Origin: Bacillus sp. FJAT-18017
GTDB lineage: Bacteria; Bacillota; Bacilli; Bacillales; Cytobacillaceae
NCBI RefSeq assembly: GCF_001278805.1
Contig: NZ_CP012602.1
Span: forward strand, 4,499,501-4,563,500
DNA: 64,000 nt
Reading direction: 5' to 3'
The notes below the pieces were generated by a model. It saw only the letters and a program-made list of their open reading frames with translations, did not search any database and was not told the DNA's origin. The translations under genes and the position numbers were made by a program. Each line of letters begins with the position of its first letter. Position 1 is the first letter of the stretch. Below, piece after piece: positions 688 through 44,263 of the stretch.

Positions 688-1614
688 TTAATTACAAACT
701 TCGTGTGGATTGGCACAGCCATTATCGGCCTTTTCAACCTGGATGGTGCTATGTTCAATTCCGAATTTGTCATGAAGCATGGATTGTGCTTGCCGGAGCA
801 CACTATCATGCACACCTTCTACTGAAATCGCGACATGGCAGCTTAGCATCGGCATCCCTGAGGTAACCGACCATATATGCAAGTCGTGGACATCCTTCAC
901 ACAAGGAATTTGCATCAATGCATTTCGAAGCGATTCAAAATCAATCTGTTCAGGTGCCCCTTCCATAAGGATATGGAAAGAGTCCTTTGTCACCCTCCAG
1001 CCAGAGATGATAATCAACACTGCGACAATCACACTTGCAATTGGGTCTGCGATGCCCCAGCCAAAGAACATCATCAATAAAGCAGCTACAATCGCTCCCG
1101 CAGAGCCAAGCATATCCCCCAATACATGGAGGAAAGCACTTCGAACGTTCAGATTTTCGTCCTTGTCACCCTTCATCAGAATAAAGGCGGCAGCTATATT
1201 GATTAGGAGTCCAAGAGTTGAAATAATCAGCATCCCCATGCTTTGAACTTCAGGAGGATTTGAAAACCTTTCAAAGGCTTCAATGAAAATAAAAATTGAA
1301 ATAGCAATTAATGTAAGGCCGTTGAGTGCTGCAGCAATAATTTCAAATCTTTTATATCCGTAAGTTTTTGCCTGAGTTGCGCTCCTCTCCCCAAGCTTAA
1401 TTGCAAAGAAGCTTAGCCCAAGTGCGGCAGCGTCGCTGAGCATATGCCCGGCATCAGACAAAAGAGCCAGGCTGTTTGTTAAAATGCCACCGATTACCTC
1501 TATAACCATGAAGGTTGCAATCAGAACGAATGACAATAGAAGTGCCTTCTTATTATCTGAATGGTGATGGTGGTGATGTCCATGTCCGTGATCATGTGAA
1601 TGGTGATGTCCCAT
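688..1614 (-). CDS. czcD: Cation diffusion facilitator zinc/cadmium efflux protein CzcD
   Basis: A membrane antiporter that exports divalent metals (Zn, Cd, Co) in exchange for protons or potassium. Seen: a histidine-rich N-terminus, six predicted membrane helices, the CDF metal site in helix II (SDAGHMLSD) and in helix V (HVLGDMLGSAG), and a C-terminal cytoplasmic domain containing HIWSVTSG. I use the ATG at 1614 rather than the upstream ATG at 1650: GGGGAG lies 9 nt before it, and the upstream start would overlap the preceding methyltransferase gene. It gives 308 residues, usual for CzcD. It is the last gene of the cadC-cadA-methyltransferase-czcD operon, so CadC probably controls it. Confidence 0.93.
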   Translation of the reverse strand: MGHHHSHDHGHGHHHHHHSDNKKALLLSFVLIATFMVIEVIGGILTNSLALLSDAGHMLSDAAALGLSFFAIKLGERSATQAKTYGYKRFEIIAAALNGLTLIAISIFIFIEAFERFSNPPEVQSMGMLIISTLGLLINIAAAFILMKGDKDENLNVRSAFLHVLGDMLGSAGAIVAALLMMFFGWGIADPIASVIVAVLIIISGWRVTKDSFHILMEGAPEQIDFESLRNALMQIPCVKDVHDLHIWSVTSGMPMLSCHVAISVEGVHDSVLRQAQSMLHDKFGIEHSTIQVEKADNGCANPHEVCN

Positions 1615-1636
1615 GATGTTGTTCTCCCCTGCCACT

Positions 1637-2266
1637 TTATTTTGATTCATCCCGTTCCTTTTCTAACAGGATAAATTTATACATTCCATTAAAGAGGATG
1701 TCTTCATTTTTCTTAATAATAATATCCCGCCGAACCCATTCGGCCAATCCCTCAAAGGAAACGCCTATATCCGTTCCTAACAGGCGGATAATCGGTCTTG
1801 CCATTTTCTTCAGCAGACTAAGGCTCCGTCCACTTGGTTTGAACTTGTCAAAAATAACGATTAGGCCGCCTCTTTTTGAGACCCTTACCATTTCGGCAAG
1901 TGCTTTTCCCCCGTCAGGTACGACGGTTAAAATTAAGCTTCCAATTACCCAATCAAACGTTTCATTCTGAAATTTCAAGTCCTGGGCATCCATCTGAAAA
2001 AATTGAATGCCAGAGCCCGGAAGCTTACTTTTTGCTTTTTCAAGCATTTCGTTTGAATAATCAATTGCGTTTATATCAAGATTGTCCGGCATGTGTACTA
2101 AATCCGCGCCTGTACCGACTCCGACCAACAGAACTTTATCGCCTTGTCGAAAGGAAAGCGAACCAAAAATTTCCTTTCGCGCCCTGAGAAAAGGACCTTT
2201 ATCAAATAATTGGTCATAAAACGGTGCCCAAAGTTTATAAATGAATGCATTCCATTTATTATTCAT
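1637..2266 (-). CDS. Class I SAM-dependent methyltransferase
   Basis: Seen: motif I VLLVGVGTGAD near residue 45, an acidic ribose-binding loop NAIDYSNEML near 68, and FDWVIGSLILTVVPDGG near 105, a typical small-molecule or phospholipid methyltransferase core of 209 residues. The substrate cannot be told. It lies 28 nt after cadA and 22 nt before czcD, so it is part of the metal-resistance operon. Methylation of a metal, metalloid or membrane lipid are possible roles but none is shown. Another methyltransferase of similar class is at 48256-48849. Confidence 0.85.
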   Translation of the reverse strand: MNNKWNAFIYKLWAPFYDQLFDKGPFLRARKEIFGSLSFRQGDKVLLVGVGTGADLVHMPDNLDINAIDYSNEMLEKAKSKLPGSGIQFFQMDAQDLKFQNETFDWVIGSLILTVVPDGGKALAEMVRVSKRGGLIVIFDKFKPSGRSLSLLKKMARPIIRLLGTDIGVSFEGLAEWVRRDIIIKKNEDILFNGMYKFILLEKERDESK

Positions 2267-2294: not shown

Positions 2295-4415
2295 TCAATC
2301 TTTTACTTTTAAAAGCCGCAGGCTATTGAGAGTCACAAGGAGTGTTGCCCCCATATCTGCAAAAATGGCAATCCATAATGTCAGCCAGCCCGGCACAACA
2401 AGAAGCAATGCCAAAAGCTTGACTGCAAGAGAAAACGTAATGTTTTGTTTGATAATGGTAAGGGCTTTCCGGCTCAGCTTGATCATGAAAGGGAGCTTGC
2501 GCAAATCATCGCCCATGAGAGCAACATCCGCCGTTTCAAGCGCAGTATCTGTCCCTGCTCCTCCCATTGCAATCCCGACAGTTGCTGCAGCAAGTGCCGG
2601 GGCATCGTTTATACCGTCTCCAACCATTGCCACCTTGCCATATTCCTGGCGCAATAGATTAATCTGTCTTAGCTTCTCCTCAGGCATGAGTTCTGCATGT
2701 ACATCCGTGACGCCAATCTGTTTACTGATAGCCCGAGCAGTTCCTTGATTATCACCAGTCAGCATAATTGTCTTCTTTATACCCGTTTCATGAAGCCTCG
2801 CAACTACTTCCCTGCTGCTGCCCCGGACTTCATCGGCAACCGCTATAAAAGCAAGGATATAAGCTTCAGTAAAGAGGGCCATTACTGTTTTCCCTTGCTC
2901 CTGAAGTGATGTTATACTATTTATTTGTTCTTTTTCTACCTTTTCACTGCAAACCTCTTCCATAAACTGAGGATTCCCAACATAATAGGTTTTTCCGTTA
3001 ATTATGCCTTTTAAGCCTTTGCCTGTAACCGAGGAAGCACTCTCTACCTCTATATCTCTATAATCTACCCCGATGCTGTCAGCCTTTTTAAGAATAGCCG
3101 AGGCAAGGGGATGCTGCGAACCATATTCAAGCGCCGCCACTAAGGAAAACGCTTCTTTTTCATCCATCGTACTGTGAGTTTTAATATCGGTTACCGCCGG
3201 GACACCCTTGGTCAAGGTTCCAGTTTTGTCAAAGGCTATGGCTGCAAGTGAACCCGCCTCTTCCAAGTGAATACCTCCCTTGATCAATACACCATTCCGG
3301 GCGGCATTCCCTATGGCGGTTACAATCGAAACTGGGGTTGAAATGACAAGGGCACAAGGACAGCCAACAACAAGAATGGAAAGTCCCTGGTAAACCCACG
3401 TACTCCAATCAGCCCCAAACAACATCGGCGGAACAATAGCAACGAGAGCCGCAACAAGCATGATGGCCGGGGTATAGTATTTTGCAAACCGATCGACAAA
3501 CGCCTGTGAGGGAGCCTTTTCTGCCTGCGCCTCTTCAACAAGGTGAATTATTTTTGCTATCGTTGTATCGTCGACAAGACGCGTTACCTTTACCTCAAGC
3601 AAGCCCTCGCCATTTAATGTCCCGGCAAAAACCTCATCCTCCCGCTTCTTTTCGACAGGGACAGATTCTCCAGTGATGGCGGCCTGATTGATGGATGAAT
3701 GGCCTTTGACTACTATTCCATCCATTGCCAGCTTTTGTCCCGGTTTGACAATCATAATGTCGCCAATTCTGATCTCTTCTACCTCAATCAGCCTATCGGT
3801 GCCATTCCGACGAACCAATGCTTCTTTTGGGGCAATATCCATCAGTGACCTGATTGAAGCACGTGCTTTATCCATTGAGTATTTCTCGAGCTCCTCACTA
3901 ATGGCAAACAGGATGACGACAATTGCCCCTTCGCTCCATTCACCTATCAATGCCGCGCCAATAATCGCGATTGTCATGAGAGTTCTCATATCAAATTCTA
4001 GCCTTGCCAGGTTTTTAAACCCTGTCCTGAACAACGGATAACCGCCTATTACAATTGCTACTGCAAAAAGAGTTATAGTAACGGGAGATTCCTCACCATT
4101 TATAAGTAGCGATACATATCCTCCGGCTATAATAAGCAAGGATAGTAAAACTCGCTTGTATTTAATCCAAAACGGGGCTGTCTGTTCAGGTTCCCGTTTA
4201 GCCTTTTCAGGTATAACCTGAAGATTGTCAAAAGCTCCTGCGCCTTCCAATTGCTGAATTGTGGCATCTCCGTAAACGGTAAGCTTGGAGGCACCAAAAT
4301 TAACTGCTGCTTCTGAAACACCATCCAGGTGTTTAACGTTCTTCTCGAACTTTGCGGCGCAGCTTGCTCAGGAAAGTCCTTCAATCCGGTATACTTGTTT
4401 CTGCGGTTCAGACAC
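2295..4415 (-). CDS. cadA: Cadmium/zinc P1B-type ATPase CadA with in-frame TGA (probable selenocysteine) in the N-terminal metal-binding motif
   Basis: An ATP-driven exporter of Cd(II), Zn(II) and Pb(II). From the GTG at 4415 (AGGAGGAGGTG before it; overlaps the cadC stop) the frame runs 706 residues with one TGA, codon 16 at 4370-4368. It reads [17 protein letters not shown], where CadA proteins have GxTCxxCA, so TGA replaces the first metal-binding Cys of the heavy-metal-associated (HMA) domain. The rest is intact: CPC metal site Cys352/Cys354, phosphorylation motif DKTGTLT with Asp396, GDGINDAP. No other stop, frameshift or decay is seen. Downstream of TGA, GTTC-GAGAA-GAAC can form a hairpin whose loop starts with G, 21 nt after TGA, matching the bacterial SECIS pattern. 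Alternatives are a nonsense mutation with internal start at the TTG near 4250, or readthrough. Confidence 0.88.
4328..4370 (-). promoter_or_regulatory. Candidate SECIS element in cadA
   Basis: After TGA (4370-4368) come 21 nt, then loop GAGAA closed by GTTC/GAAC; beyond one A-G mismatch two more A-T pairs extend the stem. Bacterial SECIS elements lie in the coding sequence 16-37 nt after UGA with G among the first two loop positions. The upper stem is short (4 bp), so on its own this is moderate evidence. Confidence 0.5.
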
Positions 4416-4776
4416 GGCTGGCCACCTCCTCCTGGTGGGCAAAGGCTATCTCTACCAGCTGCTTTACATGCTCATCATCAAGGGAGTAATAAACCATTTT
4501 CCCTTCTTTCCGATATTTCGCTATGCCTAAATTTTTCAGGGTGCGCAAATGATGGGAAGCTGTTGCGACCGAGGAACCGACAATGTTGGCTACATCGCAT
4601 ACGCAAAGCTCATCTTCTGAGGCCAGTGCATAGGTAATTTTCACTCTATTTTCATCAGATAACGCTTTGAATATTTTTGCCACATCGCCAGAACTTTTTT
4701 GTTCCAGGTCGTTTTTCACACGGCTGACCTTTGGCTCATCGACACAAGTCACTTCACAAACATCTTGTTCCTTCAT
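4408..4776 (-). CDS. cadC: ArsR/SmtB-family metal-sensing repressor CadC
   Basis: A winged-helix repressor released from DNA by Cd, Pb or Zn. Seen: N-terminal thiols (CEVTC, residues 7-11), the ELCVCD metal-site motif near residue 57 at the recognition helix region, and VGSSVATASHHLRTLKNLG as the DNA-recognition helix; 122 residues, typical of CadC. Its end overlaps the cadA start, giving translational coupling. Two 18-bp palindromes lie directly upstream and are the expected binding sites. It probably controls cadC, cadA, the methyltransferase and czcD. Confidence 0.93.
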   Translation of the reverse strand: MKEQDVCEVTCVDEPKVSRVKNDLEQKSSGDVAKIFKALSDENRVKITYALASEDELCVCDVANIVGSSVATASHHLRTLKNLGIAKYRKEGKMVYYSLDDEHVKQLVEIAFAHQEEVASRV

Positions 4777-4920: not shown

Positions 4921-5196
4921 TTAACAACATCCTTGATTGCCTAAAAGGATAAACCTTCTTCCATTTTGGTCATAATCTATTGTTACCCCTGTGGTGTAGC
5001 TCTCGATTGAGGAATCAATTGCTACTCTAATGCCATTAATTGTAGTAATACTGTCTTCTCTTTCCGGCTCATCCAGAGCCAGTCCAAACCGCGGGCCGCC
5101 TCAACCAAGGCCTGCAAAGTAAATCCTGATTCCCGTTGCACCTTCATTGGTTAAAACTTCTCTAAGAAAATCACTGGCCTTATCAGTGATGTTCAT
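4921..5196 (-). CDS. HesB-like selenoprotein (in-frame TGA as selenocysteine)
   Basis: Missed by ordinary gene calling because of an in-frame TGA. From the ATG at 5196 (GAGGTG 6 nt before it) the frame gives 91 residues with one TGA at codon 32 (5103-5101). It reads FAGLG-TGA-GGPRFGLALDEP; Cys homologues of this HesB/IscA-like group have GxGCGGP. The chain then continues without decay to the usual C-terminus, ending LGNQGCC. A GLGUGGP HesB-like selenoprotein family is known in Sec-using bacteria. A hairpin CTGGCTC-TGGAT-GAGCCGG begins shortly after TGA (loop 25 nt away, G second in the loop), a good SECIS candidate. Likely role is iron-sulfur or metal/redox handling; the exact function is unknown. 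It sits just upstream of the cad operon with its own terminator. Confidence 0.85.
5059..5103 (-). promoter_or_regulatory. Candidate SECIS element in the HesB-like gene
   Basis: CTGGCTC and GAGCCGG form a 7-bp stem (one G-T pair) around loop TGGAT. The loop lies 25 nt after the TGA, inside the 16-37 nt window known for bacterial SECIS, and has G at position 2. Confidence 0.7.
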
Positions 5197-10365: not shown

Positions 10366-11310
10366 TCATTTGTCTTGTTCCAGAATCCGAACCTCCACAG
10401 GAGGCAGCATTCCCTTCAACTGTTCTCTTTTTGATTCAAACCATGGTGGAAGCATTAATTTTTCTCCAAGTTCATCAAATGGTTCATCGACCGCAAAACC
10501 GGGTTGGTCGGTAGCTATTTCAAAAAGAATCCCGCCTTCATCATGGAAATAGATCGCTTTAAAGTAATTGCGATCCCTAATTTCTGTTGGATTATATCCC
10601 TTTTCCTTAAGGAGTGATCTCCAGCGGTTATGATCTGCTTCATTACTTGCCCTCCAGGCAATATGGTGTACAGTTCCTGCCCCCATAAGCCCTCGAACAG
10701 ATGGAGCCAACTTAATATCAATTGTATTACCAATGTCCGAATCAGCCTTGAACCGAAGGAATGAATCCTCTTGGCCCACTAATTCGAGTCCAAGTATATG
10801 TTCAAGTACATTAGCAGTTTTATTCGGCTGTGCTGATATTAATGTTGCACCACCAAATCCTTTAATCGCAATGTCAGGACGAATTTCGCCAAAACTCCAA
10901 TTATTGACTGGTCCTTCGGTTCTTTCTACTAATTCAATTTCAAGCCCATCGGGATCCTGAAAGCTTAAATATTTTTCGCCAAATCGAATAGACGTATATG
11001 TCTTTATCCTAAATTTCTTGATGCGAGCTTCCCAAAAGGATAGTGAATCTTTTGGGATGACATAAATTGTTGAGCCCACTTGCCCAGTACCAATACGGCC
11101 CTTTAACTGTTTTTCCCACGGAAAGAAAGTGATAACAGTACCCGGTGCACCTGATTCATTACCAAAGTAAAGATGATACACTTCTGGACGGTCAAAGTTG
11201 ATGGTCTTTTTTATAAGCCTTAGTCCAAGTACGCCAGAGTAAAAATCAATTGTTCTTTGTGCATCATTCACCATCGCGGTTATATGATGAATACCAGCAG
11301 TTTTTTGCAT
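10366..11310 (-). CDS. Ring-cleaving dioxygenase, glyoxalase/VOC superfamily (MhqO/MhqA type)
   Basis: A two-domain VOC protein of 314 residues thought to cleave hydroquinone or catechol rings. Seen: GIHHITAMVNDAQRTIDFYS at residues 6-25 (first metal His), FQDPDGLEIELVER near 117, a second VOC half starting near 150, AGTVHHIAWR near 211 (metal His), and GGILFEIATDQPGFAVDEP near 255 (metal Glu). Start ATG 11310 has GGAGGG upstream. The end of a second, truncated paralogue lies just upstream (11344-11527). Context with azoR, MarR and Spx genes fits quinone detoxification. Confidence 0.88.
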   Translation of the reverse strand: MQKTAGIHHITAMVNDAQRTIDFYSGVLGLRLIKKTINFDRPEVYHLYFGNESGAPGTVITFFPWEKQLKGRIGTGQVGSTIYVIPKDSLSFWEARIKKFRIKTYTSIRFGEKYLSFQDPDGLEIELVERTEGPVNNWSFGEIRPDIAIKGFGGATLISAQPNKTANVLEHILGLELVGQEDSFLRFKADSDIGNTIDIKLAPSVRGLMGAGTVHHIAWRASNEADHNRWRSLLKEKGYNPTEIRDRNYFKAIYFHDEGGILFEIATDQPGFAVDEPFDELGEKLMLPPWFESKREQLKGMLPPVEVRILEQDK

Positions 11311-43563: not shown

Positions 43564-43712
43564 TAAATAGCCCTCATCCTAAAGGAAGAGGGCAACAGTT
43601 TTAAAGTATGCTTATCTTCCAGGAAATATGTCCTGCTGGACTTGGCACAGTACCCTTTCCAGGCCTGTTGCCGAGGCTTCACAGGGCCATTCCCTCCACC
43701 TCTCTTGATAAA
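43564..43712 (-). ncRNA. SAM riboswitch (S-box) with terminator, copy 1
   Basis: On the minus strand: TTATCAAGAGAGGTGGAGGG, CCTCGGCAACAGGCC, GTACTGTGCCAAGTCCAGCA and CTGGAAGATAAG give all S-box core elements (kink-turn, GCAA, P1 closure). Aptamer about 43605-43712; terminator GCCCTC/GAGGGC at 43570-43593 followed by a T-rich tail. The next gene is the FbpA-like gene 43 bp on, not a methionine gene. Confidence 0.92.
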
Positions 43713-43767
43713 ATTTATTTAATTTTTGGCTTTGTTAGTTGATAATGTTGATTTTATAGCAGTGTTG

Positions 43768-43822
43768 ATTGGAGCGAAAGGCGCGAAGACTCCACGGAAA
43801 GCGAAGCCCATGGAGCGAAATT
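43768..43822. repeat. Shortened copy of the GC-rich palindromic repeat
   Basis: GGAGCGAAAGGCGCGAAGAC and TCCACGGAAAGCGAAG match the ends of the larger repeat, with the middle deleted. It lies between the two minus-strand SAM riboswitches. Confidence 0.65.
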
Positions 43823-43854
43823 CACATACCTTTTCAACAAAGCTAAATAAAAAT

Positions 43855-43998
43855 AAAAACCCTTTCTGAAATAGAAGAGGGTTTGTTTAATCTCTTCTTA
43901 TCTCTCAGGCTTCGCCTGCTGGATTTAGCACAGTACCTTTTTAGGCCTGTTGCCGAGGTTTCTTAGGGCCATTCCCTCCACCTCTCTTGATAAGAACG
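43855..43998 (-). ncRNA. SAM riboswitch (S-box) with terminator, copy 2
   Basis: Minus strand: TTATCAAGAGAGGTGGAGGG, ACCTCGGCAACAGGCC, GTACTGTGCTAAATCCAGCA, GAGAGATAAGAAG. Aptamer about 43886-43998; terminator AAACCCTCTTC/GAAAGGGTTT at 43855-43886, then T-rich. No gene follows before copy 1, so the controlled gene seems lost. Confidence 0.9.
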
Positions 43999-44111
43999 CT
44001 ATGTAATTATTAAATTCCAATTTACCGTGAAACGGAAAATAAGTCAACACTAGGATTGACATTTCCGAAAATCAATCTATACTATTCCTATAGGAATTAA
44101 ACAAAATAACA

Positions 44112-44263
44112 TTATCAAGAGTGAACGAGAGATCTGGCTCAATGACTTCACAGCAACCTGCTCAGCAAGGTGCTCCTACCAGCAAGGCTGCTGCCTTGAC
44201 TGATGAAAACAGTCATTACCTCTTTCTGCAGCCAGGCAAAAAGAGGCTTTTATTTTTTTAGCA
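44112..44263 (+). ncRNA. SAM riboswitch (S-box) with terminator, copy 3 (plus strand)
   Basis: TTATCAAGAGTGAACGAGAG, ATCTGGCTCAATGACTTCAC, AGCAACCTG, AAGGTGCTCCTACCAGCA and CTTGACTGATGA form the S-box core; P1 is TTATCA with TGATGA. The terminator CCTCTTT/AAAGAGG at 44219-44247 is followed by TTTTATTTTTTT. It precedes an esterase gene by 48 bp. Confidence 0.88.

Follow-up and report, generated by a model that had tools for sequence, protein, structure and literature searches.

The cadA locus

The window, by which we mean the whole stretch of DNA analysed, is 64,000 nucleotides from Bacillus sp. FJAT-18017. Within it lies a gene for a heavy-metal pump whose reading frame is crossed by a TGA codon. 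The features of the locus, all on the minus strand, are as follows.

688..1650, minus strand: CDF-family cation efflux gene (NCBIfam/Pfam)
1637..2266, minus strand: SAM-dependent methyltransferase gene, downstream of cadA (NCBIfam/Pfam)
2295..4415, minus strand: cadA, heavy-metal P1B-type ATPase, GTG start, one in-frame TGA (frame and Pfam/NCBIfam)
4316..4334, minus strand: hairpin 2, proposed to bind SelB; its UGGAU loop begins 40 nt past the TGA (folding, covariation, RNAalifold)
4336..4352, minus strand: hairpin 1, loop GAGAA starting 21 nt after the TGA (folding, covariation, RNAalifold)
4359..4361, minus strand: second Cys codon, kept, residue 19 (reading of the sequence)
4368..4370, minus strand: TGA at the first Cys of the HMA CxxC, codon 16, predicted to encode selenocysteine (Sec) (frame and 2aj0 alignment)
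4408..4776, minus strand: cadC, ArsR/SmtB-family metalloregulator, its end overlapping the cadA start (frame and NCBIfam/Pfam)
4422..4430, minus strand: likely ribosome-binding site of cadA, AGGAGGTGG (reading of the sequence)
4921..5196, minus strand: HesB-like gene with its own in-frame TGA at 5103-5101 (reading of the sequence; PF01521 over cut-off)
5064..5082, minus strand: hairpin 3' of the HesB-like TGA, loop UGGAU starting 25 nt after the TGA (folding)

The gene at 4921-5196 is called HesB-like by its motif and PF01521 only, because TIGR01911, its best match, falls below the cut-off (56.5 against 66.35 bits). It is probably a second selenoprotein gene adjoining cadA. For 102 named loci more than 700 bases of upstream sequence are available; cadC lies upstream of Sec-cadA in 84 of them, two of these being distant 32% matches more than 1 kb away. 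A HesB-like gene is present in only three of the 102, and we rejected it as a general neighbour. Downstream, the methyltransferase gene accompanies 14 of the 70 named loci with enough sequence (by eye it is also in locus L227) and the CDF gene 14 of 59. Rfam, run over the whole window, returned three matches, all SAM riboswitches distant from cadA. They sit within about 600 bases of one another (43609-44209), two on the minus strand and one on the plus. Between 4200 and 5250 Rfam gave only sub-threshold hits to PyrR and RsaJ (E=1.4 each), which we judge to be chance.

A UGA in the metal-binding domain

Read from 4415 to 2295, cadA has 707 codons with a single internal TGA and a normal stop, and its product has 706 residues. 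The protein carries the Pfam domains HMA, E1-E2_ATPase and Hydrolase, and its translation contains the CPC motif as GCPCAL and the DKTGT motif as DKTGTLT. It scores above the NCBIfam cut-offs for TIGR01525 (a match that spans the ATPase body, residues 143-701, outside the HMA domain) and TIGR01512 (534 bits against 313.5), just over that for TIGR01511 (copper) and below that of the ZntA model NF033775. CPC, DKTGT, an HMA domain and a match to the Cd-subfamily model together are the marks of a Zn/Cd/Pb P1B-ATPase of the CadA/ZntA kind, and from its family and the adjoining cadC we predict that CadA is a Zn/Cd/Pb-type efflux pump.

The closest solved HMA domain to that of CadA is 2aj0, labelled a probable cadmium-transporting ATPase. 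In it the position of the TGA (4370-4368) is GLSCTNCAAKFERNV, the first Cys (alignment, E=3.6e-28), so that the in-frame UGA of cadA aligns with a Cys of homologues, as in selenoprotein genes. An initial annotation of this DNA, made from its letters, had described a frame open but for one TGA on the first HMA cysteine, with the second kept, and the 707 codons and the alignment bear this out. Its contention that translation starts ahead of the TGA, coupled to cadC, is also supported: the GTG start (4415-4413) lies within the final codons of cadC, whose stop is at 4410-4408, and AGGAGGTGG lies upstream. The protein N-terminal of the TGA is conserved, with Arg at position -6 in 125 of 125 Sec-cadA copies. 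Homologues have Sec or Cys at the TGA position. In every Sec copy whose sequence was read the TGA occupies the identical codon, and it is therefore not there by chance.

The UGA might instead be a conserved true stop that ends a 15-residue leader, with a pump lacking the HMA domain made from an internal start. A TTG at 4250 on the minus strand does open a frame of 651 residues, the longest start-codon-based frame within cadA, but we saw no ribosome-binding site there in the window sequence. Among the Sec-cadA copies the HMA pattern is kept by residues on both sides of the TGA. TGA copies are also linked with selA and followed by SECIS-like hairpins, and Cys stands in place of the TGA in copies such as L226, whose genome has neither selA over the cut-off nor tRNA-Sec. 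We consider a true stop very unlikely. An annotation based on start codons would take the 651-residue frame and remove the HMA domain, which may therefore be missing from many Bacillus-like records. In a protein search limited to the 7997 candidates with the most words in common with the query, the best 120 had 785-882 residues and the names shown were without a selenium label, which does not imply that databases lack Sec forms.

A genome that can decode selenocysteine

The initial annotation had proposed a search for selA, selB, selD and tRNA-Sec, and all four are present in this genome, the full set expected of a host of selenoprotein genes. SelA scores 573 bits (cut-off 268), SelB 363 (cut-off 242) and tRNA-Sec 65 (cut-off 47), the last with ARAGORN in agreement. 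A selD frame, recognized by reading the frame and its motif, adjoins selA and has its own TGA in AGUGCK. Two fdhA-like frames contain one TGA each. Sequence alone would be compatible with readthrough of the cadA UGA as Cys, Trp or another amino acid without SelB. With selA, selB and tRNA-Sec all present, and a constraint on the RNA (described below) that is specific to the Sec copies, such readthrough seems to us slightly less probable still than a true stop. We regard decoding of this TGA as Sec as close to certain, and cadA is very probably a true selenoprotein gene.

Distribution of the TGA copies

We searched for the HMA region in 193 genomes of the window's family, repeating the search for the 59 genomes absent from the first listing and for 13 more whose first match had no TGA, and counted by hand. 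A TGA copy of cadA, its position read directly in the fetched copies and elsewhere taken from the '1 TGA' flag of the match, is present in 157 of the 193. It occurs in 154 of the 172 genomes with selA over the cut-off (18 have selA and no TGA copy) against 3 of the 21 without. Of these 21, only G179 and G183, which are 81% and about 80% complete, gave a tRNA-Sec match (E<=1e-9); none was found in the other 19. A strict rule that the TGA copy occurs only with selA is broken by G169, G171 and G179; of these, only G179 has tRNA-Sec, and G169 and G171 have neither it nor selA over the cut-off. The Sec-cadA locus of G169 (L227) is 100% identical over 4745 bases to that of G007 (L207), a member of another genus that, unlike G169, has selA and tRNA-Sec; the identity is the result of recent transfer or contamination. 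In the copy from G171 (L228, from position 10511) the hairpin 2 loop is UGUAU, not UGGAU. The TGA copies of G169 and G171 appear to be newcomers that their hosts cannot decode.

The family is not the limit of the gene. In a sample of 397 genomes from the order, a TGA copy is carried by at least 39 that lie outside the window's family and are spread over 14 other family labels, and all 39 copies fetched from these other families have the TGA in UxxC. In a sample of 398 genomes from the phylum, 14 gave a match at E<=1e-14, seven of them with TGA, including three family members. A pattern scan of named genomes gave at least 120 matches; the 120 listed comprise 112 Sec-CadA and eight chance matches. 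Among the matches listed, the hosts of the Bacillus type are Neobacillus, Mesobacillus (including M. selenatarsenatis SF-1), Peribacillus, Cytobacillus and Rossellomorea, with Bacillus methanolicus PB1, Salirhabdus, Salinibacillus and Thalassobacillus also hosting Sec-cadA; those of the clostridial type, again among the matches listed, are Pelotomaculum, Desulfotomaculaceae, Thermosediminibacteraceae, Alicyclobacillus and actinobacterial MAGs. In Cytobacillus oceanisediminis 2691 a Sec-cadA is carried on plasmid pBO1 (L107) besides a chromosomal copy (L123). One copy, L225 from G124, has a second in-frame TGA about 12 codons 5' of the Sec TGA; its start codon probably lies between the two.

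A lone TGA in an otherwise intact frame resembles a nonsense change, as in a sequencing error or a dying gene. The closest relative, G019:C1:2624429-2624779 (L030, L224), has a short frame of 513 or 487 codons, which is a frameshift or an assembly error. The TGA, however, is shared by 112 of the 120 matches listed and by 39 of 39 copies from other families of the order. Its recurrence contradicts error or decay for the family as a whole, and we give this explanation a negligible chance for cadA. The initial annotation had looked to decayed frames upstream of a TGA shared by all close strains as evidence against a selenoprotein; in relatives with the TGA most frames are intact, that of G019 being shortened.

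Constraint on the RNA

Our RNA set holds 140 distinct Sec copies (125 of Bacillus type, 14 of clostridial type and L149) and 31 distinct Cys copies. L149 is left out of the Bacillus-type counts because hairpin 2 is absent from its usual place. The scan pattern put no restriction on the third positions of the constrained codons.

Bacillus-type copies hardly vary in the third positions of codons 6-10 after the UGA and are clearly constrained in those of codons 13-17, with variation around both blocks. All 125 copies have TTC for Phe7, whereas Phe24 of the same genes is TTC in 33; Asn10 is AAC in 122 of 125 against 36 of 125 for Asn23; and Leu14 is CTG in all 125. The Cys copies have TTC at Phe7 in 9 of 31, AAC at Asn10 in 8 and CTG at codon 14 in 4. 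Constraint is weaker in the clostridial type (Phe7 TTC 10/14, Asn10 AAC 12/14).

Without a structure being supplied, RNAalifold drew both hairpins in 88 Bacillus-type and in 16 clostridial-type sequences. Across the 88, 91.4% of cells pair, compared with 36.5-47.1% in slid controls; 34 cells are changed on both sides, compared with a shuffled mean of 13.6; and the covariation score is 0.111, compared with 0.068. For the last two measures none of 500 shuffles, which leave the relatedness among sequences in place, was as high. The pairing is not perfect. In 71 of the 88 sequences pair 20/34 of hairpin 1 does not form, and of the two outer pairs of hairpin 2 one is lost in 19 sequences and the other in 8. 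In the clostridial set (14 distinct sequences), three measures exceed all 500 shuffles, namely the paired cells, those changed on both sides and the score, while pairs changed on both sides (138/500 as high) and pair types (469/500) do not rise above them. Two of the 19 pairs tested are absent from every sequence. The 26 distinct Cys copies that remain once relics are left out have no excess of covariation (0.092 against 0.099; 375/500 as high). Folding of single sequences gives no such signal: the window's cadA region is not distinct from its shuffles (z -0.52; 61 of 200 fold as well), and neither is the HesB-like element.

We also collected 40 TGA copies as an out-of-sample set, 39 from other families of the order and one, G574, from elsewhere in the phylum; 33 of them were new. 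The core pairs are complete for hairpin 1 in 32 of the 33, for hairpin 2 in 31 and for both in 30. Hairpin 1 has paired changes from GC to AU (3) and from CG to UA (4), and Phe7 is TTT in seven copies. Sec machinery, the TGA in 157 of 193 family genomes and the hairpins all favour the initial annotation's candidate selenoprotein P-type ATPase. The TGA, the machinery, the conservation and both hairpins can be taken as established at the level of sequence.

Which hairpin is the SECIS?

In the published bSECIS model the apical loop has 3-9 nt with a G in its first two positions (mostly as G[G/U]), the stem has 4-16 bp, the minimum free energy (MFE) is -7.5 kcal/mol or lower, and the UGA-to-loop distance is 16-37 nt (PMC13188914, in its description of the model). 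Neither hairpin of the window fits throughout. The initial annotation had noted a SECIS-like hairpin 21 nt after the TGA, and hairpin 1 exists there (4352-4336), but alone it folds at only -3.5 kcal/mol, and the annotation overlooked a further hairpin at 4334-4316. That one, hairpin 2, combines a 5-nt UGGAU loop with G[G/U], 7 bp and an energy of -7.5 kcal/mol, within the loop, stem and MFE values of the model, though the energy is just at the limit. Its loop starts 40 nt after the UGA in the Bacillus type and 47 nt in the clostridial type, beyond the model's 16-37 nt. A SECIS outside the published spacing may escape tools built on that model, and more selenoproteins may be hidden in this way.

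Hairpin 1 could be the element that binds SelB, with hairpin 2 an accessory and Sec still inserted. Its loop starts 21 nt after the UGA, inside the published range, with G first; the clostridial version folds at -18.2 kcal/mol, again with G first at 21 nt, and is within the formal bSECIS limits on its own; and its core pairs are complete in all but one of the 33 new copies. On the other hand, its loop consensus is GARNA, without the usual G[G/U], and the window's fold is far from the -7.5 kcal/mol limit. The UGGAU loop of the HesB hairpin, in the window genome, two close relatives and Peribacillus kribbensis, is shared by hairpin 2 and not by hairpin 1 (in most clostridial-type copies the hairpin 2 loop is UGUNA). 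Two copies, L263 (G615) and L279 (G754), lack hairpin 2, and in the place of hairpin 1 they have a hairpin with a GGUUC loop 16-17 nt after the UGA (-7.9 to -11.0 kcal/mol). This is a canonical single SECIS, so one gene family has two architectures. On balance we think it rather unlikely, though worth keeping in mind, that hairpin 1 binds SelB; the hairpin that the initial annotation placed in 4330-4370 is probably not the SelB-binding element alone, and hairpin 2 fits the loop rule better.

The spacing of the other elements in this genome, counted by hand, is instructive. The loop starts 17 nt after the UGA in selD, 18 nt in both fdhA genes and 25 nt in the HesB-like gene. If hairpin 1 is excised (13-17 nt in the Bacillus type, 25 nt in the clostridial consensus), the distance from the UGA to the loop of hairpin 2 becomes 23-27 and 22 nt, respectively. 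From the loop type, the spacing of these other elements and what remains after excision of hairpin 1, we propose hairpin 2 as the SelB site and hairpin 1 as the spacer that sets its distance, a division of labour that we consider likely. L238 and L241 have a shortened or shifted inner helix in hairpin 1, and an outer stem closes the spot. L149, from an Atopococcus tabaci MAG, has no strong hairpin, only a weak one (-4.2 kcal/mol, loop CGGGA) 43 nt after the UGA.

Selenocysteine and cysteine in one family

A quick tree, built from 126 proteins (22 Cys and, after thinning, 104 Sec), needs eight changes of the Sec/Cys label, at least five of them forced by starred branches. The eight changes reject one clean Sec clade; the tree does not separate gains from losses. 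Cys copies L226, L189, L197 and one of L127 are nested among Sec copies. The first three still carry relics of the hairpins: those of L189 are intact, L197 has a mismatch in hairpin 2, and in L226 hairpin 1 contains a C/A mismatch and hairpin 2 a wobble pair. The host of L226, G108, has no selA over the cut-off and no tRNA-Sec, and this copy is best read as an exchange of Sec for Cys following loss of Sec decoding. The hosts of L189 (G124) and L197 (G190) still have selA. Some genomes, for example G047, G048, G055 and G186, have both forms. In CadA the Sec would belong to a metal-binding site, not to a redox enzyme of the classic kind, and some of these genomes encode Cys paralogues as well, which makes it directly testable what is gained by Sec over Cys.

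How the element may work

We picture a ribosome, coupled from cadC, that would reach the UGA after 15 codons. Hairpin 1 would fold between the UGA and hairpin 2 and so restore the usual spacing of about 22-27 nt, and SelB with Sec-tRNA would bind hairpin 2 through its G[G/U] apical loop. Without selenium, translation would stop at 15 residues, and synthesis of the complete pump would depend on a supply of Sec. In the HMA domain the Sec-Cys pair would probably coordinate a soft metal or close reversibly into an Se-S bond. The roles of Sec as ligand or redox switch, and the gating by selenium, would follow from chemistry and from the UGA itself. The reading as a whole, a Sec CadA in which hairpin 2 is the SelB site and hairpin 1 a spacer, strikes us as likely. 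A broader idea, on which we are evenly divided, is that this is a second bacterial SECIS architecture, an extruded spacer hairpin plus a distant SelB hairpin, that guides a ligand or redox Sec into a selenium-dependent pump over much of a Bacillus-like order.

Comparison with known systems

The initial annotation thought a Sec CadA HMA domain rarely or not described. This did not stand, since a UxxC heavy-metal P-type ATPase is already listed as a predicted selenoprotein family, "cation-transporting ATPase, E1-E2" (PMC13188914, PMC9312934, PMC2398784), and a table in PMC2398784 includes one metagenome selenoprotein of this kind. Like CadA, these proteins, ABB15669.1 among them, are heavy-metal P-type ATPases with Sec first in UxxC, and CadA has the UxxC in a TIGR01525 protein that marks the family. 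The passages on E1-E2 selenoproteins in these papers do not mention a spread through the Bacillaceae, the linkage to cadC or a two-hairpin element. The portions of PMC2147054 and PMC12013277 consulted contain nothing on a Sec-CadA or a two-hairpin SECIS. A literature search by titles and abstract beginnings, with most subscription papers out of reach, found no Sec-CadA in Bacillaceae and no two-hairpin bacterial SECIS, and no paper joining Neobacillus with a selenoprotein.

Cys P1B-ATPases of the CadA/ZntA type resemble the window's CadA in domains and HMA sequence, 2aj0 being the closest solved, but have Cys where cadA has TGA. Two or three HMA domains occur in several of the Cys paralogues; in the named Sec copies the frame upstream of the TGA is open for 75 codons at most. 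There are parallels for a Sec at a soft-metal site in the NF041115 UxxU metal-binding (seleno)protein and in the putative mercuric transport selenoproteins (a family listed in PMC13188914). These belong to other families and are not the pump, and NF041115 matches the CadA HMA domain only weakly (29 bits, cut-off 95). HesB-like selenoproteins (TIGR01911), treated in PMC1794560, have in common with cadA a TGA, a neighbouring gene and the UGGAU hairpin loop; the HesB-like product differs in being another protein, below the TIGR01911 cut-off, with a single hairpin 25 nt after the UGA. Canonical bSECIS elements, as the model describes them, are like hairpin 2 in the 5-nt G[G/U] loop and the energy of -7.5 kcal/mol, and unlike it in that the loop of hairpin 2 lies at 40 or 47 nt with another hairpin between. 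A selenocysteine heavy-metal ATPase family was thus already predicted. What is new, as judged from sequence, is the two-hairpin element, with its covariation and its constraint on synonymous codons, both missing from the Cys paralogues.
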